From an uncultured bacterium (GTDB lineage Bacteria; Patescibacteriota; Minisyncoccia; Minisyncoccales; UBA5738): a DNA stretch of 39,332 bases. A model generated the notes under the pieces. It had not been told where the DNA came from and searched no databases. It was given only the letters and a program-made list of their open reading frames with translations. The translations under genes were made by a program, and so were the position numbers. Positions 6,647 through 20,730 of the stretch are shown piece by piece. Location: contig CAINCQ010000011.1 in the NCBI GenBank assembly GCA_903847095.1, positions 1 through 39,332 of the forward strand. Reading direction: 5' to 3'. Positions within the stretch are counted from its first letter, which is position 1; each line of letters begins with the position of its first letter.

Positions 6647-9388
6647 ATGAAAAAAATATTATGCTTGTTTTTGTTATCCGTTTTGGTTTGGGCTGGCTTT
6701 GGCAACGCAGGCCTTGTTCACGCTCAAGCTGTCAATCTTATTGCCAATCCTTCGCTTGAAACGGCCAACGGTACGGTACCCCAAGATTGGACTTCGCTTA
6801 AAACCGGTACCAACACTACCACTTTTGCCTACCCGAATTCCGGCGCGCAAGACGGAACGAGTTACGCCAAAATAACGATTACGGCCTATACCAACGGCAA
6901 TGCCAAATGGTTTTTTACGCCGGTAGCGGTTACGGCAGGGCAAAAATACTATTTTACCAATTATTATCTCTCGACCGTCTTATCGACCACGATCGCTGAG
7001 TTTCAGGACGCGGCGGGTAATAAAACAACGCTTACCTTGGGTAGTGACTACGCTTCGGCGTCCTGGAAGCAAGCCGCTTATACCTTTACGGCGCCGGCTG
7101 GCGCGGTTAATGTCACGGTATATCAGCAACTGGCGCGCAAAGGGACGCTCCAAACCGATAATTACTATTTAACTTTAGCCACTGGTACCCTGGTTGTGAA
7201 GAAAGTCGTGGTCAACACCGGAGGCGGAACCCTGACCGCGGCCAACTTCAGTTTCTCGGTCAACGGCGGAACCGCGGTCGCTTTCAACTCCACCGGCCAG
7301 AACAGCCTGACCGAACCGGTCGGAACCTACACGGTTACGGAAACCCCGGCCGCCAATTACAAGACAACTTACAGCAGCTGCACGAACGTATCGGTTAGAA
7401 ATAATCTCACTACCACTTGCACCATCACCAACACGTATCAAGCCGGTACCTTAACCGTGAAGAAAGTCGTGGTCAACACCGGAGGCGGAACCCTGACCGC
7501 GGCCAACTTCAGTTTCTCGGTCAACGGCGGAACCGCGGTCGCTTTCAACTCCACCGGCGTAAATAGCCTGACCGAACCGGTCGGAACCTACACGGTCACC
7601 GAAACCCCGGTCGCCAATTACAAGACGACCTATAGCAACTGTACTAGCGTATCGGTTAGAAATAATTACACTACCACTTGCACCATCACCAATACGTATC
7701 AAGCCGGTACTTTGGTCGTGAAGAAAGTGGTGGTCAACACCGGCGGAGGGACCCTGACCGCGGCCGCTTTCAGTTTCTCGGTCAACGGCGGGACTGCGGT
7801 TCCTTTCAACGCCAGCGGCCAAAACAGCCTGACCGAACCGGTCGGCACCTACGCGGTCACGGAAACCCCGGCCGCCAATTATACTGCCTCATTCAATAAC
7901 TGCAGCGGAGTCGCGGTTGCGGCCAACACCACCACGACCTGCACCATCACCAACACTTATGTGCCACCGACCGGAACTTTAGTGGTCAATGAAATTTTGG
8001 ACAATACCGGCGGCGGGTACGCGACTCTGGCCAATTTCAGTTTCTCGGTCAATGGCGGGACAGCGGTTCCCTTCAACTCCACCGGTCAAAACAGTCTGAC
8101 CGAGCCGGTCGGCACCTACACGGTCACTGTGCCGTCGGTCACCAATTACGCAACATCGTATAGTAACTGTAATTCCATGTCGGTCATTGCCGATGCCACC
8201 ACGACCTGTACCATCACCAATACCTATAATCCTTCTCCCGACAATAGCGTCCCGAATCCTTCGCTCGAGCAGGATTCAGGCACCGGACTGCCGGTATCCT
8301 GGAATAAAATGGGTCTCTGGGGAAGCCTTACTCCGACCTACACCTATCTGACCACCGGCCATACCGGGAACCGCAGCGTCAAAATTGAGGTAAGCAACTA
8401 TTCGAGCGGCAACGCGGGCTGGGAGTTTGACTTTCAGCCGATCACCGGCGGAAAATCGTATCTTGTCAGCGATTACTACCAGTCGAATATCAACACCTTG
8501 GTATATGTCGCCGTTAAAGACGCTACCGGAACGATCAAATTTAACGCGATCGGCCAAGCTCCGGCCTCAACCGGTTGGGCCAAGTATTCCGCCGTATTCT
8601 CCATGCCGGCTAACGCCGTAAGCTACATGTTCTATCAAGCGGTCGAAGGAAACGGCTGGCTGATCACCGACGATTACTCGTTTACCCCTCAAGTCACCAC
8701 CGGTTTTAGTCGCGCTCTGGTGTCAATCAATTTCGACGATGGCCGGATAGGCAATTACACTAATGCACTGTCCTTGCTCACCGCGCATAACTTTAAAACT
8801 ACTCAATATATCGTTACCGAAAGCTTGGCCGGCGCCGATCCCAGTTATTATATGACCCAAAGCCAGATTAACGCCTTTTACGCGCTTGGCCACGAGATCG
8901 GATCGCATACTGTGGACCATAGTAGCTTAACCAAACTTTCCACCGCGAAAGTAGACCAAGAGTTGTCGGAATCAAAGTCAACGCTCGAAGCGCTCTTCCC
9001 CCCGATTAACAACTTCTCCATACCTAATGGAGATTACAATGCGTCGGTCATTACCGAGATCAAAAAATATTATCGTTCCGCCCGCACCAGCAACCTCGGA
9101 TTCAATACCCTATCCAATTTCGATCCGTATGGCATCGAGTGCCAGTATATTACCTATTCAACCACTCTTAGCGATCTGCAAAGCTGGCTGGCCCAAGCGG
9201 CCCAGGATAAATCCTGGCTGGTGATTCTTTACCACGGCGTTGATAATCCACATACGTCGTCCGATGGCGAATATTCAATCACTTCCCAGACATTTAGCGA
9301 CCAGCTTAACGCGATCACAGCCAGCGGATTGCCGGTAGTTACCGTGCAGCAGGCACTGGATGAGATAACGCCTCAATTGCCCCAGTAA
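6647..9388 (+). CDS. Large secreted polysaccharide deacetylase (NodB domain) with four internal repeats
   Basis: A 913-residue exported protein. Residues 1-26 are a signal peptide ending VHAQA. Residues 28-178 and about 530-682 are two related beta-rich modules (NPSLE...W...), like carbohydrate-binding modules of the CBM4/9 fold. Between them lie four repeats of about 87 residues beginning GTLVVKKV at residues 180, 267, 354 and 443, which resemble prealbumin-like stalk domains. The C-terminal NodB domain (about 685-905) has SINFDDGR (metal and base Asp pair), SHTVDHS (H-x-x-x-H metal motif), PNGDYN (in place of RxPYG) and LYHGV. These enzymes remove N-acetyl groups from GlcNAc polymers with a divalent metal. 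The stalk suggests display beyond the envelope. It faces the GT2 operon, so the polymer made there is its likely substrate. A terminator follows at 9418. Confidence 0.85.
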   Translation: MKKILCLFLLSVLVWAGFGNAGLVHAQAVNLIANPSLETANGTVPQDWTSLKTGTNTTTFAYPNSGAQDGTSYAKITITAYTNGNAKWFFTPVAVTAGQKYYFTNYYLSTVLSTTIAEFQDAAGNKTTLTLGSDYASASWKQAAYTFTAPAGAVNVTVYQQLARKGTLQTDNYYLTLATGTLVVKKVVVNTGGGTLTAANFSFSVNGGTAVAFNSTGQNSLTEPVGTYTVTETPAANYKTTYSSCTNVSVRNNLTTTCTITNTYQAGTLTVKKVVVNTGGGTLTAANFSFSVNGGTAVAFNSTGVNSLTEPVGTYTVTETPVANYKTTYSNCTSVSVRNNYTTTCTITNTYQAGTLVVKKVVVNTGGGTLTAAAFSFSVNGGTAVPFNASGQNSLTEPVGTYAVTETPAANYTASFNNCSGVAVAANTTTTCTITNTYVPPTGTLVVNEILDNTGGGYATLANFSFSVNGGTAVPFNSTGQNSLTEPVGTYTVTVPSVTNYATSYSNCNSMSVIADATTTCTITNTYNPSPDNSVPNPSLEQDSGTGLPVSWNKMGLWGSLTPTYTYLTTGHTGNRSVKIEVSNYSSGNAGWEFDFQPITGGKSYLVSDYYQSNINTLVYVAVKDATGTIKFNAIGQAPASTGWAKYSAVFSMPANAVSYMFYQAVEGNGWLITDDYSFTPQVTTGFSRALVSINFDDGRIGNYTNALSLLTAHNFKTTQYIVTESLAGADPSYYMTQSQINAFYALGHEIGSHTVDHSSLTKLSTAKVDQELSESKSTLEALFPPINNFSIPNGDYNASVITEIKKYYRSARTSNLGFNTLSNFDPYGIECQYITYSTTLSDLQSWLAQAAQDKSWLVILYHGVDNPHTSSDGEYSITSQTFSDQLNAITASGLPVVTVQQALDEITPQLPQ
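7184..8232 (+). repeat. Four tandem stalk-domain repeats, near-identical at DNA level
   Basis: Units start at 7184, 7445, 7706 and 7973. The first two are exactly 261 bases apart, as are the second and third; the third unit is 267 bases. Long stretches such as AACACCGGAGGCGG are shared word for word between units 1 and 2, while unit 4 has drifted most (VNEILDNTGGG). This points to recent duplication or gene conversion. Confidence 0.9.
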
Positions 9389-9483: not shown

Positions 9484-9943
9484 ATTGTCTTTGCTTTGGT
9501 CCTATCTTCCAATCGTAGAGATGATTTTTCCAATCTTGGGCTTTAGCCGCATCTTGGGCCTCGGTCGGAGTCTCAATATAGTTGTCCCACTTTTTCCCGC
9601 TGTCTTCCTGCAGGAAGTTCAATACTTTCTCCGTGTAGTCGTTGGTATGGTTTATCTCCGCTTTTGTACTTAGTTGAGTCAGCGGGTTTACCTCTTCCTT
9701 GGGAGCATCCTGCGGATGCGAGGAAAGGTCTCCCGCGTAGAAGTGGGAAGTGCCAACTGTCTTGTTGTACCACGGAGCTGCGTCGCCGGCGGATGGGAAA
9801 ACCAGGACTACTCCCGGCGTATACTGGGTCAGTAAAGATCCCGTTCCATTGACACTTATGTCTTTCGAGAAACCCGGACTTGTAAACATTGCAACCGCGA
9901 GCAAAATTAGTCCCGCGGTCTGTATTATGCCTATTTTGCTCAT
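9482..9943 (-). CDS. Secreted protein of unknown function
   Basis: A 153-residue protein. The start is well supported: an AAAGGAG ribosome binding site sits about 10 bases upstream, and the N-terminus MSKIGIIQTAGLILLAVAMF is a signal peptide with likely cleavage after PGFS (about residue 26). The mature part is acidic and polar, has no Cys and several Trp (APWYN, KKWDNY, QDWKNHLYDWK). I recognise no family. It is a monocistronic unit with a promoter at 10094-10122 and a terminator overlapping its stop. It lies back-to-back with the deacetylase gene, each ended by its own terminator, so it need not belong to the polysaccharide pathway. Confidence 0.7.
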   Translation of the reverse strand: MSKIGIIQTAGLILLAVAMFTSPGFSKDISVNGTGSLLTQYTPGVVLVFPSAGDAAPWYNKTVGTSHFYAGDLSSHPQDAPKEEVNPLTQLSTKAEINHTNDYTEKVLNFLQEDSGKKWDNYIETPTEAQDAAKAQDWKNHLYDWKIGPKQRQ

Positions 9944-17605: not shown

Positions 17606-17941
17606 TCAAGCCGCCAGCGCGGCCTTAGCTGGCCAAATTACCCTTGCGGCAGGAAGTCCGCGGCGGCCAAAGCCAAAAAGCGATCGTAGGGCGCCGGCCT
17701 TACATAACCCGAGGTCGATGCCACAAACGAACTCAACGGCGCCTCTGCTGATGAAATTATACTTTAAAATATTGTTTTCGCCAAAATCCCGGAATTCTTT
17801 GATCCTTTCAATCGCGCTAACCTTCCCGTCTGGCCCCGGGCTTACGAAGTGGCTTAAGAGCGCGGAAGTCCAGCCAAAACCGGACCCGATATCAATCATG
17901 TATTTTTCCGGACGATGCACGGCGTTTTCAAACACCCCATT
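17606..17941 (-). pseudogene. Decayed protein-L-isoaspartate O-methyltransferase (pcm) fragment
   Basis: The frame from about 17935 reads YMIDIGSGFGWTSALLSHF, then KVSAIERIKEFRDFGENNI and VEFVCGIDLGL, the SAM-binding core of PCMT enzymes. The catalytic N-terminal third (the part with the QTISQP motif) is missing. After KAGA the frame shifts by one base near 17690-17697; in the next frame PYDRFLALAAADFLPQG continues the family pattern (cf. PYDRI), then meets a TAA at about 17640, after which QLRPRWRLEI resumes the expected 'QL.PGG.L.I' segment. So it carries one truncation, one frameshift and one stop. It is non-functional unless these are assembly errors. It would have repaired isoaspartyl damage in proteins. 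Confidence 0.75.
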
Positions 17942-17969: not shown

Positions 17970-17998
17970 TTGACTTTATTGATTATTTGTTTTATACT
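17970..17998 (+). promoter_or_regulatory. Promoter of membrane cassette A
   Basis: TTGACT (17970-17975), a 17-base spacer, TATACT (17993-17998); a perfect TATAAT overlaps it at 17998-18003 but with a 22-base spacer. The start point lies only about 7-12 bases before the ATG at 18017. Confidence 0.8.
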
Positions 17999-18016
17999 AT
18001 AATTGGTGCATTAACA

Positions 18017-18625
18017 ATGATGAGCCCTGAAGAAAAAAAGGAGAAACTCCGCGATTGCGGATTGATAGCCGTAAGAAAAGTAAAGTCTTACGTTGCGGGA
18101 AAAATACGAAAACTGGCGAATGTTGCGCTCTTTGGCATTTTTTTCCTAGCCTGGTTGAATGTGGCGGTTTTTATTAGCCACGGTTCCCCCTGGGAATCTC
18201 TTAGCGGAATTTGGCCGCTCGTTATGATCTTATCGATCATCGGAACTTTCGCGACCATAATATGGGGATACCTTGACTATCTTCGTCCGTCTTTCGGACG
18301 GCAGGGATTCGACACGGACAAAGCCTTAAAACGTTGCCTGGAATTTATCCTGACGGTTCTTGCGATCTTCGGACCACTGTTTGTGGTTGTATTAATTATC
18401 GCCCGTTTTAATTATCCGGACACGCTTGACGCTTTCGAGGCTTTGTCTTATGCCGTGTTGATAGTTTATCTGGCGGTAATCGGCGTCTCTTTGGACTTAA
18501 GTATTTGTGTTCATGAATTGCACAAACACTGGGTTGATAGAAAGAACAACCTGCTGGGAATCGCAGAGACAAAATGTATTGAAGGAATCGGCTATCTGTT
18601 CTGGAAATCAGGCAGATGCAACTGA
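18017..18625 (+). CDS. Membrane protein, cassette A of a tandem family
   Basis: A 202-residue protein with about four membrane helices (about residues 35-57, 65-85, 114-136, 146-166) and a basic N-terminus. The C-terminus reads RKNNLLGIAETKCIEGIGYLF then GRCN. The same layout (hydrophobic helix, then R/H-x-x-N-x-(L/I)-G-(I/F), then a C-terminal R-x-C or RC) recurs in the proteins at 19015 and 19424, so the three are paralogues. The start is ATG 18017, or ATG 18020, with an almost absent leader and no ribosome binding site; an upstream in-frame codon at 17987 lies in the promoter and is rejected. The terminator stem covers the stop codon. I recognise no described family. Confidence 0.7.
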   Translation: MMSPEEKKEKLRDCGLIAVRKVKSYVAGKIRKLANVALFGIFFLAWLNVAVFISHGSPWESLSGIWPLVMILSIIGTFATIIWGYLDYLRPSFGRQGFDTDKALKRCLEFILTVLAIFGPLFVVVLIIARFNYPDTLDAFEALSYAVLIVYLAVIGVSLDLSICVHELHKHWVDRKNNLLGIAETKCIEGIGYLFWKSGRCN

Positions 18626-18638
18626 TTCCTTTTTTTTG
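18606..18638 (+). terminator. Terminator of cassette A
   Basis: AATCAG (18606-18611), a 10-base loop, CTGATT (18622-18627), extended by GG/CC, then a run of nine T. It includes the TGA of cassette A. Confidence 0.8.
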
Positions 18639-18665
18639 TTGACAAATCATTTATGACCATAATAT
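18639..18665 (+). promoter_or_regulatory. Possible promoter of cassette D
   Basis: TTGACA (18639-18644) abuts the terminator of cassette A; TAATAT (18660-18665) follows at a 15-base spacing. The -35 is perfect, the -10 weak. Confidence 0.5.
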
Positions 18666-18684
18666 TTACGATAATCATCTATAA

Positions 18685-18972
18685 GTGTTATCAAAACGGC
18701 AGCTTGCCTCTTGTTTATCGGCCTTGAAAAAAAATGTCATTGGGACAATCATGAGCTTAAAACTCTCTTATGTTCCTAAATTTTTTGGCCGGCGCTTCGA
18801 AAATGATCATTGTAAAGATCAAGAAATCGGCCATGCCGCGATCGCTATTCGCCGATGCAAAACCAAACCCGAAGCCCAGGACAAGAATATTATCGAAAGG
18901 TACGGAACAATCGCCCGCGAAAGCCCGCGACTCAACCGGTCCTTTTTTTTATCGCCCCTCTGTCGTGCTTGA
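18685..18972 (+). pseudogene. Possible decayed or reduced member of the membrane cassette family (cassette D)
   Basis: A 95-codon frame opening at GTG 18685, about 13 bases after the expected transcript start, as in the neighbours. Most of the frame is not membrane-like, but its middle reads IGHAAIAIRRCKTKPEAQ, which resembles the C-terminal end of cassette C (IGIIYIAAGRCKTKKA). The frame then runs on across an ACCGGTCC-T8 tract that looks like the end of cassette B's terminator and stops at 18972. A second frame at 18770-18976 also crosses this point. I read it as a remnant whose transmembrane part is lost. It could instead be an intact small gene of another kind, or no gene. Confidence 0.35.
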
Positions 18973-18997
18973 CTAAAAACAAATTTTGTGTCATTAT
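18969..18997 (+). promoter_or_regulatory. Promoter of cassette B
   Basis: TTGACT (18969-18974), a 17-base spacer, CATTAT (18992-18997). The predicted start is about 10 bases before the ATG at 19015. Confidence 0.6.
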
Positions 18998-19014
18998 CAA
19001 CCTGGTGATTTAAT

Positions 19015-19338
19015 ATGGACGAGCAAGCAATAAATTGCGGATTGAAGATCTGTTTGATGATCAAAAACAGACTCTACCCAAAAATCGTCAAGTTATCCCT
19101 AATCCTGTCGCCCATTTATTTTCTTCTTTTTTGCCTTACTGTTAAAATTTTGGGCATTGATTTATTCGGCGCCAGGGTATTGTATCTCCTGTTTTTCGCT
19201 TCCGTGGCCGGGTGCGTACAGGATTGCATGATTCTATTGGATGAAATTGACGATTTCCAATCCGGCAATCACGATAATCATATCGGGTTTGCGGTTGAAT
19301 GGATCGGACGCGCTGCCCGCGCATTAAGGCAGTGCTGA
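19015..19338 (+). CDS. Membrane protein, half-length cassette B
   Basis: A 107-residue protein with two membrane helices (about residues 27-46 and 53-71). It corresponds to the C-terminal half of cassettes A and C: SVAGCVQDCMILLDEID aligns with LPGCWHDLKYMFGDI of C, and HDNHIGFAVEWIGRAARALRQC aligns with DSNPLGFISRTVIRGIG...GRC. The stop codon directly follows the final Cys. It lacks the N-terminal helix pair of the other two, so it is either a natural short form or a truncated copy. It has its own promoter and terminator and a near-absent leader. Function unknown. Confidence 0.65.
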   Translation: MDEQAINCGLKICLMIKNRLYPKIVKLSLILSPIYFLLFCLTVKILGIDLFGARVLYLLFFASVAGCVQDCMILLDEIDDFQSGNHDNHIGFAVEWIGRAARALRQC

Positions 19339-19356
19339 AACCGGTCCTTTTTTTTT
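19301..19356 (+). terminator. Terminator of cassette B, nested hairpin
   Basis: GGATCGG (19301-19307) pairs with CCGGTCC (19341-19347) through one G-T pair, with an inner CTGCC/GGCAG hairpin (19313-19317, 19328-19332), then about ten T. It spans the end of the coding region. Confidence 0.7.
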
Positions 19357-19376
19357 GGCCGCAAAACGGTTTTGTT

Positions 19377-19404
19377 TTGACAAATTTAAATTTAATGATA
19401 TCAT
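19377..19404 (+). promoter_or_regulatory. Promoter of cassette C
   Basis: TTGACA (19377-19382), a 16-base spacer, TATCAT (19399-19404). The leader would be about 13 bases and contains GAGG at 19412-19415, 8 bases before the ATG at 19424. Confidence 0.75.
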
Positions 19405-19423
19405 ACGGCCCAGAGGTTTAACA

Positions 19424-20092
19424 ATGACCGTTAAAACGAAAGAGGATTGTCCGCTCCACTGCGGCTACGAAGCCATTGACGACTTCCGATATTATTGGCG
19501 GGACAACAGTAATGATTTTTTGATCAATACCTGGTTAGTATGCTCTATACCGGCCCTCCTTGCCGTCGCTTGCGGTATTTATTGGAGCCTGGTACCCGAT
19601 AATATCTTTGTGCTGATGTTTTTAGCGGTAGTGATAGTGTTTGGCATAATAGGCGCCGTGCTAGATGCCGCGTTTATTTTTGCCGCGATAGACATTTGGC
19701 GGTTCCATCAAGGCTTGGTAATGCCAAAATGGGTTATCAGCTCCGCCGAACGCTATGCCCGGATCGCCTCACTCGCCGCTAAGATCGCGGCCGTAAAGTT
19801 CTGGGAACTGGGTTCCCCGGTTCTGCTGGTCACGCTTTTAACCGCTTACCGGTCAAACGAACTGGGCGCGCTTTCCGGCAACGCTCTTAGTCTTTTCTGG
19901 ATCGTTTGCGCCGCTTGCCTGCCCGGATGCTGGCATGACTTAAAATATATGTTTGGCGATATCGTAAAAGCACTTTGGATCGGCCGCGACAGCAATCCGC
20001 TTGGATTCATTTCGCGCACCGTGATACGAGGCATCGGGATTATATACATTGCTGCGGGCAGATGCAAAACTAAAAAAGCTCACGTCAATTGA
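19424..20092 (+). CDS. Membrane protein, cassette C of a tandem family
   Basis: A 222-residue protein with about four membrane helices (about residues 38-58, 64-92, 127-150, 160-178), a polar N-terminus with two Cys (DCPLHCGYE) and the family C-terminus: WIGRDSNPLGFISRTVIRGI followed by an AAGRC segment and the basic tail KTKKAHVN. The start is ATG 19424, supported by GAGG 8 bases upstream and by the promoter at 19377; an upstream in-frame start at 19355 lies in the previous terminator. It is the longest member of the array. No known family is recognised; similarity to cassettes A and B is by eye, at the level of spacing and key residues rather than high identity. Confidence 0.7.
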   Translation: MTVKTKEDCPLHCGYEAIDDFRYYWRDNSNDFLINTWLVCSIPALLAVACGIYWSLVPDNIFVLMFLAVVIVFGIIGAVLDAAFIFAAIDIWRFHQGLVMPKWVISSAERYARIASLAAKIAAVKFWELGSPVLLVTLLTAYRSNELGALSGNALSLFWIVCAACLPGCWHDLKYMFGDIVKALWIGRDSNPLGFISRTVIRGIGIIYIAAGRCKTKKAHVN

Positions 20093-20115
20093 AATCGGCA
20101 ACGCCGATTTTTTTT
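20093..20115 (+). terminator. Terminator of cassette C
   Basis: AATCGGC (20093-20099), loop AAC, GCCGATT (20103-20109), then T8. Confidence 0.9.
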
Positions 20116-20168
20116 ACCTTAACTTCGTCTTATTCGTATTTCCGTGAACCTTCGATCCGTCGGAGTTT

Positions 20169-20202
20169 GGCCGCCGGGCAGACCGGCAGGATGCCGGCGG
20201 CC
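20169..20202. repeat. Long GC-rich imperfect hairpin, REP-like
   Basis: GGCCGCCGGGCA (20169-20180) pairs with TGCCGGCGGCC (20192-20202) with one bulged G, and the 11-base loop contains CCGGCAGG. There is no T-run on either strand. It sits between convergent transcription units. Confidence 0.6.
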
Positions 20203-20265
20203 GAACCCTTGAAAAAAATGATAGGCTAAAAAGGATTATCCAAGGTGCGGCTTAAGCGCTTCGTA

Positions 20266-20391: not shown

Positions 20392-20730
20392 CTATTTTAC
20401 GCGGAATAAAACCTTATGCCAATCCTTGTAGCAGGCTATGCCCTGAAAGGCCAGCCCCCCCATTATGCCAACCACAAGCTGGTCGGAAAAAAAGGCAAAG
20501 TTGTAATGGACGGCTAAGGGAATAACACCCAAACCGAGCACCCAATGGTGCAAGTGAAAACGATACCTACCAAGGTCAAATTTCAATGATCTGACAATCC
20601 CCTCCTTCCCGGTTTCCTTACCGGCCAAAACAAGGGCGCCGATATACCCGATAACCACACCCAAATAGATTTCTAATGAAATTACGGCTATGGGAACCGC
20701 CAGCAAAAAGTTACGTTTGGAAATTTTCAT
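20392..20730 (-). CDS. Membrane protein with an HxHH motif
   Basis: A 112-residue protein with three likely membrane helices (about residues 8-35, 63-80, 84-99). Between helices 1 and 2 is a basic segment, LKFDLGRYRFHLHHWVLGLG, whose three His and Trp at the membrane border could bind a metal or act at an interface. I do not recognise a characterised family. It lies downstream of tRNA-Trp; in many bacteria that place is held by secE, but this protein is too long and has the wrong layout for SecE. No clear ribosome binding site is seen before the ATG. A terminator candidate follows at 20266-20298. Confidence 0.65.
   Translation of the reverse strand: MKISKRNFLLAVPIAVISLEIYLGVVIGYIGALVLAGKETGKEGIVRSLKFDLGRYRFHLHHWVLGLGVIPLAVHYNFAFFSDQLVVGIMGGLAFQGIACYKDWHKVLFRVK

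Follow-up and report, generated by a model that had tools for sequence, protein, structure and literature searches.

Class II holins are small two-helix membrane proteins with an N-in/C-in topology. They resemble gene B of the locus described here in size, in the membrane hairpin, and in the charged C-terminal tail. The analogy holds for B only, and it differs in that no PHROGs sequence match was found, in that the proteins A and C of the same locus have four predicted helices, and in the chromosomal setting. Membrane protein families of unknown function have been reported from CPR bacteria by Meheust et al. (2019, PMC6744442). Those families are widespread, whereas the present one was found in one genus only among the genomes searched, and in a tandem array; a search of the literature on tandem membrane-protein duplicates in Patescibacteria found nothing relevant. 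The closest relative is a single gene from a sister species of the same genus, Patescibacteria group bacterium isolate RA.bin35 (G001). The gene is located at contig position 40827-41465 of JAKLGH010000001.1, between mltG and a macB-type operon, and its protein has 212 aa.

The window, which is the whole stretch of 39,332 nucleotides that was analysed, features three genes and a probable remnant at the locus where the sister species has one gene. The array probably represents a genus-restricted orphan family of small inner-membrane proteins that was multiplied in tandem and is in birth and decay. All units are on the forward strand. Gene A (18017-18625) encodes 202 aa, or 201 if the start is the ATG at 18020, with four predicted membrane helices in N-in/C-in orientation, and is assigned by topology and by homology to the sister protein. 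Gene B (19015-19338) encodes 107 aa consisting of an N-terminal tail with a CG, one membrane hairpin, and a C-terminal tail, and is considered a shortened relative. Gene C (19424-20092) encodes 222 aa and is the positional ortholog of the sister gene, with 35% identity and the same neighbours. A probable decayed unit, U4 (18685-18972), is an open frame from a GTG that is without membrane helices and has the tail IGHAAIAIRRCKTK. The first-pass annotation had listed three proteins of 202, 107, and 222 residues, and these frames are present with the in-frame codon preference of the window's genes, which is found in none of the other forward frames. No further copy was detected outside the array in the window's genome (G000, 1.35 Mb, 42 contigs).

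A, C, and the sister gene are clearly homologous. A and C align over 84 C-terminal amino acids with 31% identity (pairwise E 3e-6), a similarity that was reached by 0/1000 shuffles, and also by 0/1000 when only short stretches were shuffled. The sister protein is 31-35% identical to C (E 1e-29) and 24% identical to A over 210 aa (E 2e-7). The A-C and A-sister identities of 22-25% are below the 35% between C and the sister protein. These values are low compared to the surroundings of the locus, where mltG is 72% identical between the two species and the neighbours on both sides are in the same order and mostly 70-90% identical; A, C, and the sister gene are thus full-length homologs in a fast-changing family. 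The comparison within the family covers two genomes, those of the window and of the sister species. Columns common to A, B, C, and the sister protein are an N-terminal C-G, G-x-x-x-D, N-x-x-G, I-G, and a terminal C. A common C-terminal plan had been claimed for all three proteins of the array; it stands for A and C, and it is weaker for B, which is joined to the family by a profile E of 0.011. Adjacent genes, as expected of tandem paralogs, are homologous: A and C to each other and both to the sister gene, and B by profile only. The outcome was neither an absence of similarity nor a match to three different families, the two results named beforehand as speaking against a common origin. The first reading did not include three features: the C-G near the N-terminus, the ortholog that the sister species has in single copy, and the scars of genes on either side of the array.

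The sister gene resembles C in its place upstream of mltG, its promoter, leader, and terminator, its similar length, its charge pattern, and its end motifs, and the conservation of the promoter, leader, and terminator identifies C as the positional ortholog. It differs from the array in that it is present in one copy, is 35% identical to C, and is followed by an intact macB-type ABC operon that appears to have been lost in the window. Just before the sister gene, at 9730-9790 of the sister locus L008, a palindromic stretch CAGAGTCCCGGTCTCTG occurs twice and may be a terminator or a scar. An open frame of near-identical repeats (IPPSPPFDRFAHSGRAVEDEVCLSTRGMVSKSES) between tRNA-Thr and tRNA-Tyr of the sister (L008 15387-15731) resembles repeated DNA in tandem more than a gene. 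An internal two-fold repeat in A, C, and the sister protein, in which two hairpins would have arisen by duplication, was tested and was not significant.

Gene B is, with fair confidence and judging by its sequence, a relative with an internal deletion that lost one membrane hairpin. In pairwise comparisons with the family, B scores close to chance level (p 0.03-0.1). With a profile built from A, C, and the sister protein, B was the top non-member among 2351 ORFs, with an E of 0.011 compared to 0.87 for the next, and 0/2875 scored shuffles of B reached its profile score. From the N- to the C-terminus, B retains the C-G, a single hairpin, G-x-x-x-D, N-x-x-G, I-G, and the final Cys. The predicted structure of B features a helical hairpin and a C-terminal helix (pLDDT 76), and no meaningful PDB match to this model was found.

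The segment 18639-18972 is probably a decayed fourth unit, as had been proposed, and the evidence for this is moderate. It has a TTGACA promoter and an in-frame GTG located 18 nt after the -10 element, compared to 17-19 nt in the other units. The IGHAAIAIRRCKTK tail could be aligned with those of B, C, and the sister protein, each time at the same position (shuffle p 0.017, 0.007, and 0.064, respectively), and the last 17 nt of the terminator are identical to the terminator end of B. The promoter spacing, the tail, and the terminator end thus agree with a fourth unit, and its decay is probable only. The U4 frame reads through its own terminator and contains no membrane helix; its in-frame codon score is 0.11, with negative scores in the other frames. 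Against a profile including B, 2/2000 shuffles scored as high as U4, compared to 153/2000 for a profile without B, and the DNA similarity outside the terminator is not significant. The stretch ERYGTIARES beside the common terminator was considered as the true U4 tail and was not adopted (p 0.08 without the shared 17-mer).

Each unit features its own predicted promoter and terminator at the level of consensus and fold. The promoter of A (17970-17998, TTGACT-17-TATACT) and that of U4 (18639-18666, TTGACA-16-AATATT) both match 10/12 positions in the consensus scan. The same scan located the promoter of B (18969-18997, TTGACT-17-CATTAT), which has a TG before the -10 element, and the promoter of C (19377-19404) is TTGACA-16-TATCAT, which is conserved together with the leader in the sister species. 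TTGACW occurs 48 times on both strands of the 39 kb, and four of these occurrences are at the four unit starts; when 24 gene starts were scored for promoter matches, those of A, B, and C ranked with the best (9-11 of 12). A TTGAC(A/T) promoter had been noted before each unit, and the motif is indeed followed by a -10 element at a spacing of 16-17 in 4/4 units. The -10 elements end 17-19 nt before the start codons, which places the predicted transcription start ~10 nt upstream and matches the distance of 7-13 bases given in the first-pass annotation. A terminator had also been placed on or next to each stop. T8 runs follow A, U4, B, and C; the hairpins are convincing for B and C, moderate for U4, and weak for A. 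The putative terminator of A (18600-18637, fold z -1.3) overlaps the gene end, that of U4 (18893-18951) has a z of -2.5, that of B (19301-19356) has a stem that begins inside the gene (-24.5 kcal/mol, z -3.3), and that of C (20091-20115, z -2.7) is conserved in the sister species.

The predicted topology, based on hydropathy and charges, is N-in/C-in; A and probably C would have four helices and B would have two, and in the sister protein the third helix is below threshold. The K+R counts follow a positive-inside pattern, 10/0/5/1/6 in A and 5/1/3 in B, which predicts that both tails are inside and that the outer loops are short. Between C and the sister protein, 14/31 positions (45%) are identical in the N-terminal tail and 22/47 (47%) in the C-terminal tail, compared to 34/136 (25%) in the membrane part between them. 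The tails, with almost double the conservation of the membrane part, are also kept in both shortened units, which indicates that the working part is at the cytoplasmic face. The family contains 3.1% Cys compared to 1.2% in the neighbouring proteins, an enrichment that is not significant in A alone or in the sister protein alone. Just two cysteine columns are the same in all four proteins, which is too small a number to define a metal site, and a metal or thiol role is thus a guess. The structure model of C has a pLDDT of 44 and is useless. That the family is a cysteine-bearing cytoplasmic tail module is likewise a guess. It is very unlikely that such a Cys module is held at the membrane by exchangeable hairpins and serves a metal- or thiol-dependent, genus-specific process such as host-cell contact, with the array varying the number of anchors and keeping both tails.

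No other members were found in 247 genomes of the order, 384 of the class, and 380 of the phylum, and none in the same-family genomes G002-G004. Viral contigs and phages contained no relative when C or an alignment of A, C, and the sister protein was the query. The genome collection yielded nothing with an alignment of A, B, and C, and the sister record only with C and the sister protein. Sporadic partial matches in other genomes (E 0.001-0.01, one in G399 at 8e-6) fall mostly inside larger open frames and are read as chance between hydrophobic stretches. Searches of Pfam, NCBIfam, PHROGs, and PADLOC gave chance-level matches only, and a profile search of the PDB gave no match. The absence of a homolog in these five resources agrees with the earlier statement that no described family has this plan.

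The array is bordered by mltG, a pcm fragment, a macB remnant, a 112-aa membrane protein, and tRNA genes. The fragment of pcm (protein-L-isoaspartate methyltransferase) lies to the left of A, beside mltG, at 17606-17935 on the reverse strand and covers positions 75-123 of 210 of PF01135 (E 1e-4). A full-length pcm was found in G002 and G003 only among the four genomes searched, with none in G001. The remnant at 20133-20216, to the right of C and also on the reverse strand, corresponds to the 3' end of a macB-like permease; it matches over 28 aa at 68% in tblastn (E 1e-5) and over 109 nt at 78% in blastn. Complete permease, ATPase, and membrane-fusion genes are present at the sister locus (L008 10524-14137). 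In the rest of the window's genome this operon is matched at 24-28% identity at best, so it appears to be lost there. Together, the two scars show that the interval between mltG and the tRNA genes is prone to gene gain and loss. The mltG regions of G002 and G003 are not syntenic. The 112-aa membrane protein (20392-20730, reverse strand) is 71% identical in the sister species, was not found in three same-family genomes searched, and has no Pfam match. Elsewhere in the window (6647-9388), a secreted-looking protein features several near-identical repeats (VVKKVVVNTGGGTLTAANFSFSVNGGTAV) and, by eye, a polysaccharide-deacetylase-like end.

The age of the duplications is less certain than the homology. 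It is quite possible, though short of likely, that a set of two to four paralogs existed before the species split and that the sister lost all but one, a history that differs in timing only. C is closer to the sister gene than to A or B, with A-C and A-sister identities of 22-25% compared to 35% for C and the sister, so the duplications may predate the split and the sister may have lost copies; the same distances, however, result when freed copies change faster, and no trace of A or B was found in the short interval before the sister gene. That only A and C are paralogs, and that B and U4 are unrelated small genes or chance frames, is rather improbable. The near-chance pairwise p of B and the insignificant DNA similarity of U4 outside its terminator are what such chance frames would give, but B is the top non-member of 2351 ORFs with a score that no shuffle reaches, it has the family promoter spacing and both end motifs in order, and the U4 tail aligns with three family tails at matching positions, with a terminator end in U4 that is identical to that of B.

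The resemblance to toxin-immunity, bacteriocin, or surface-variation loci that had been suggested found no support. Tandem units with private signals, rapid divergence, and hairpin membrane proteins of variable length would suit an array kept diverse for toxin immunity, bacteriocin immunity, or surface variation, yet this reading is highly improbable: PADLOC and PHROGs gave no match to defence, phage, or immunity models, the array adjoins no gene for a toxin, a leader peptide, processing, or export, the conserved parts are predicted to be cytoplasmic, the gene is solitary in the sister species, and one array copy is probably decayed.

An orphan family multiplied in tandem remains the preferred reading. 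The homology of A, C, and the sister gene is joined by the synteny, the charge pattern, and the consensus promoters, and B is fairly well supported as a member, although its membership rests on a weak profile score. The earlier reading of related units with their own signals that grew by duplication is supported, as is its statement that no described family has this plan. A single ancestral gene, of which the sister still has one copy and which C represents in the array, would have been duplicated with its own promoter and terminator. The copies would then have diverged fast, A at full length, B without one membrane hairpin, and U4 without the membrane part and the stop; we infer both the order of the duplications and the decay of U4. 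The hairpins may serve as variable anchors for a working part at the cytoplasmic face, which would bring together the N-terminal tail with its C-G and the amphipathic C-terminal tail with its final Cys. That these tails bind a partner or a metal there is conceivable but doubtful.

The locus offers no new mechanism and mostly reflects ordinary gene-family evolution. Should the tails turn out to bind a metal or a partner, B would lend itself to study as the minimal form. The single-copy sister species provides a reference point for the birth and decay of the array. The array adds a protein family without an entry in the libraries searched. It is also a clear example of how genes arise and decay locally in a reduced genome of the Patescibacteria.
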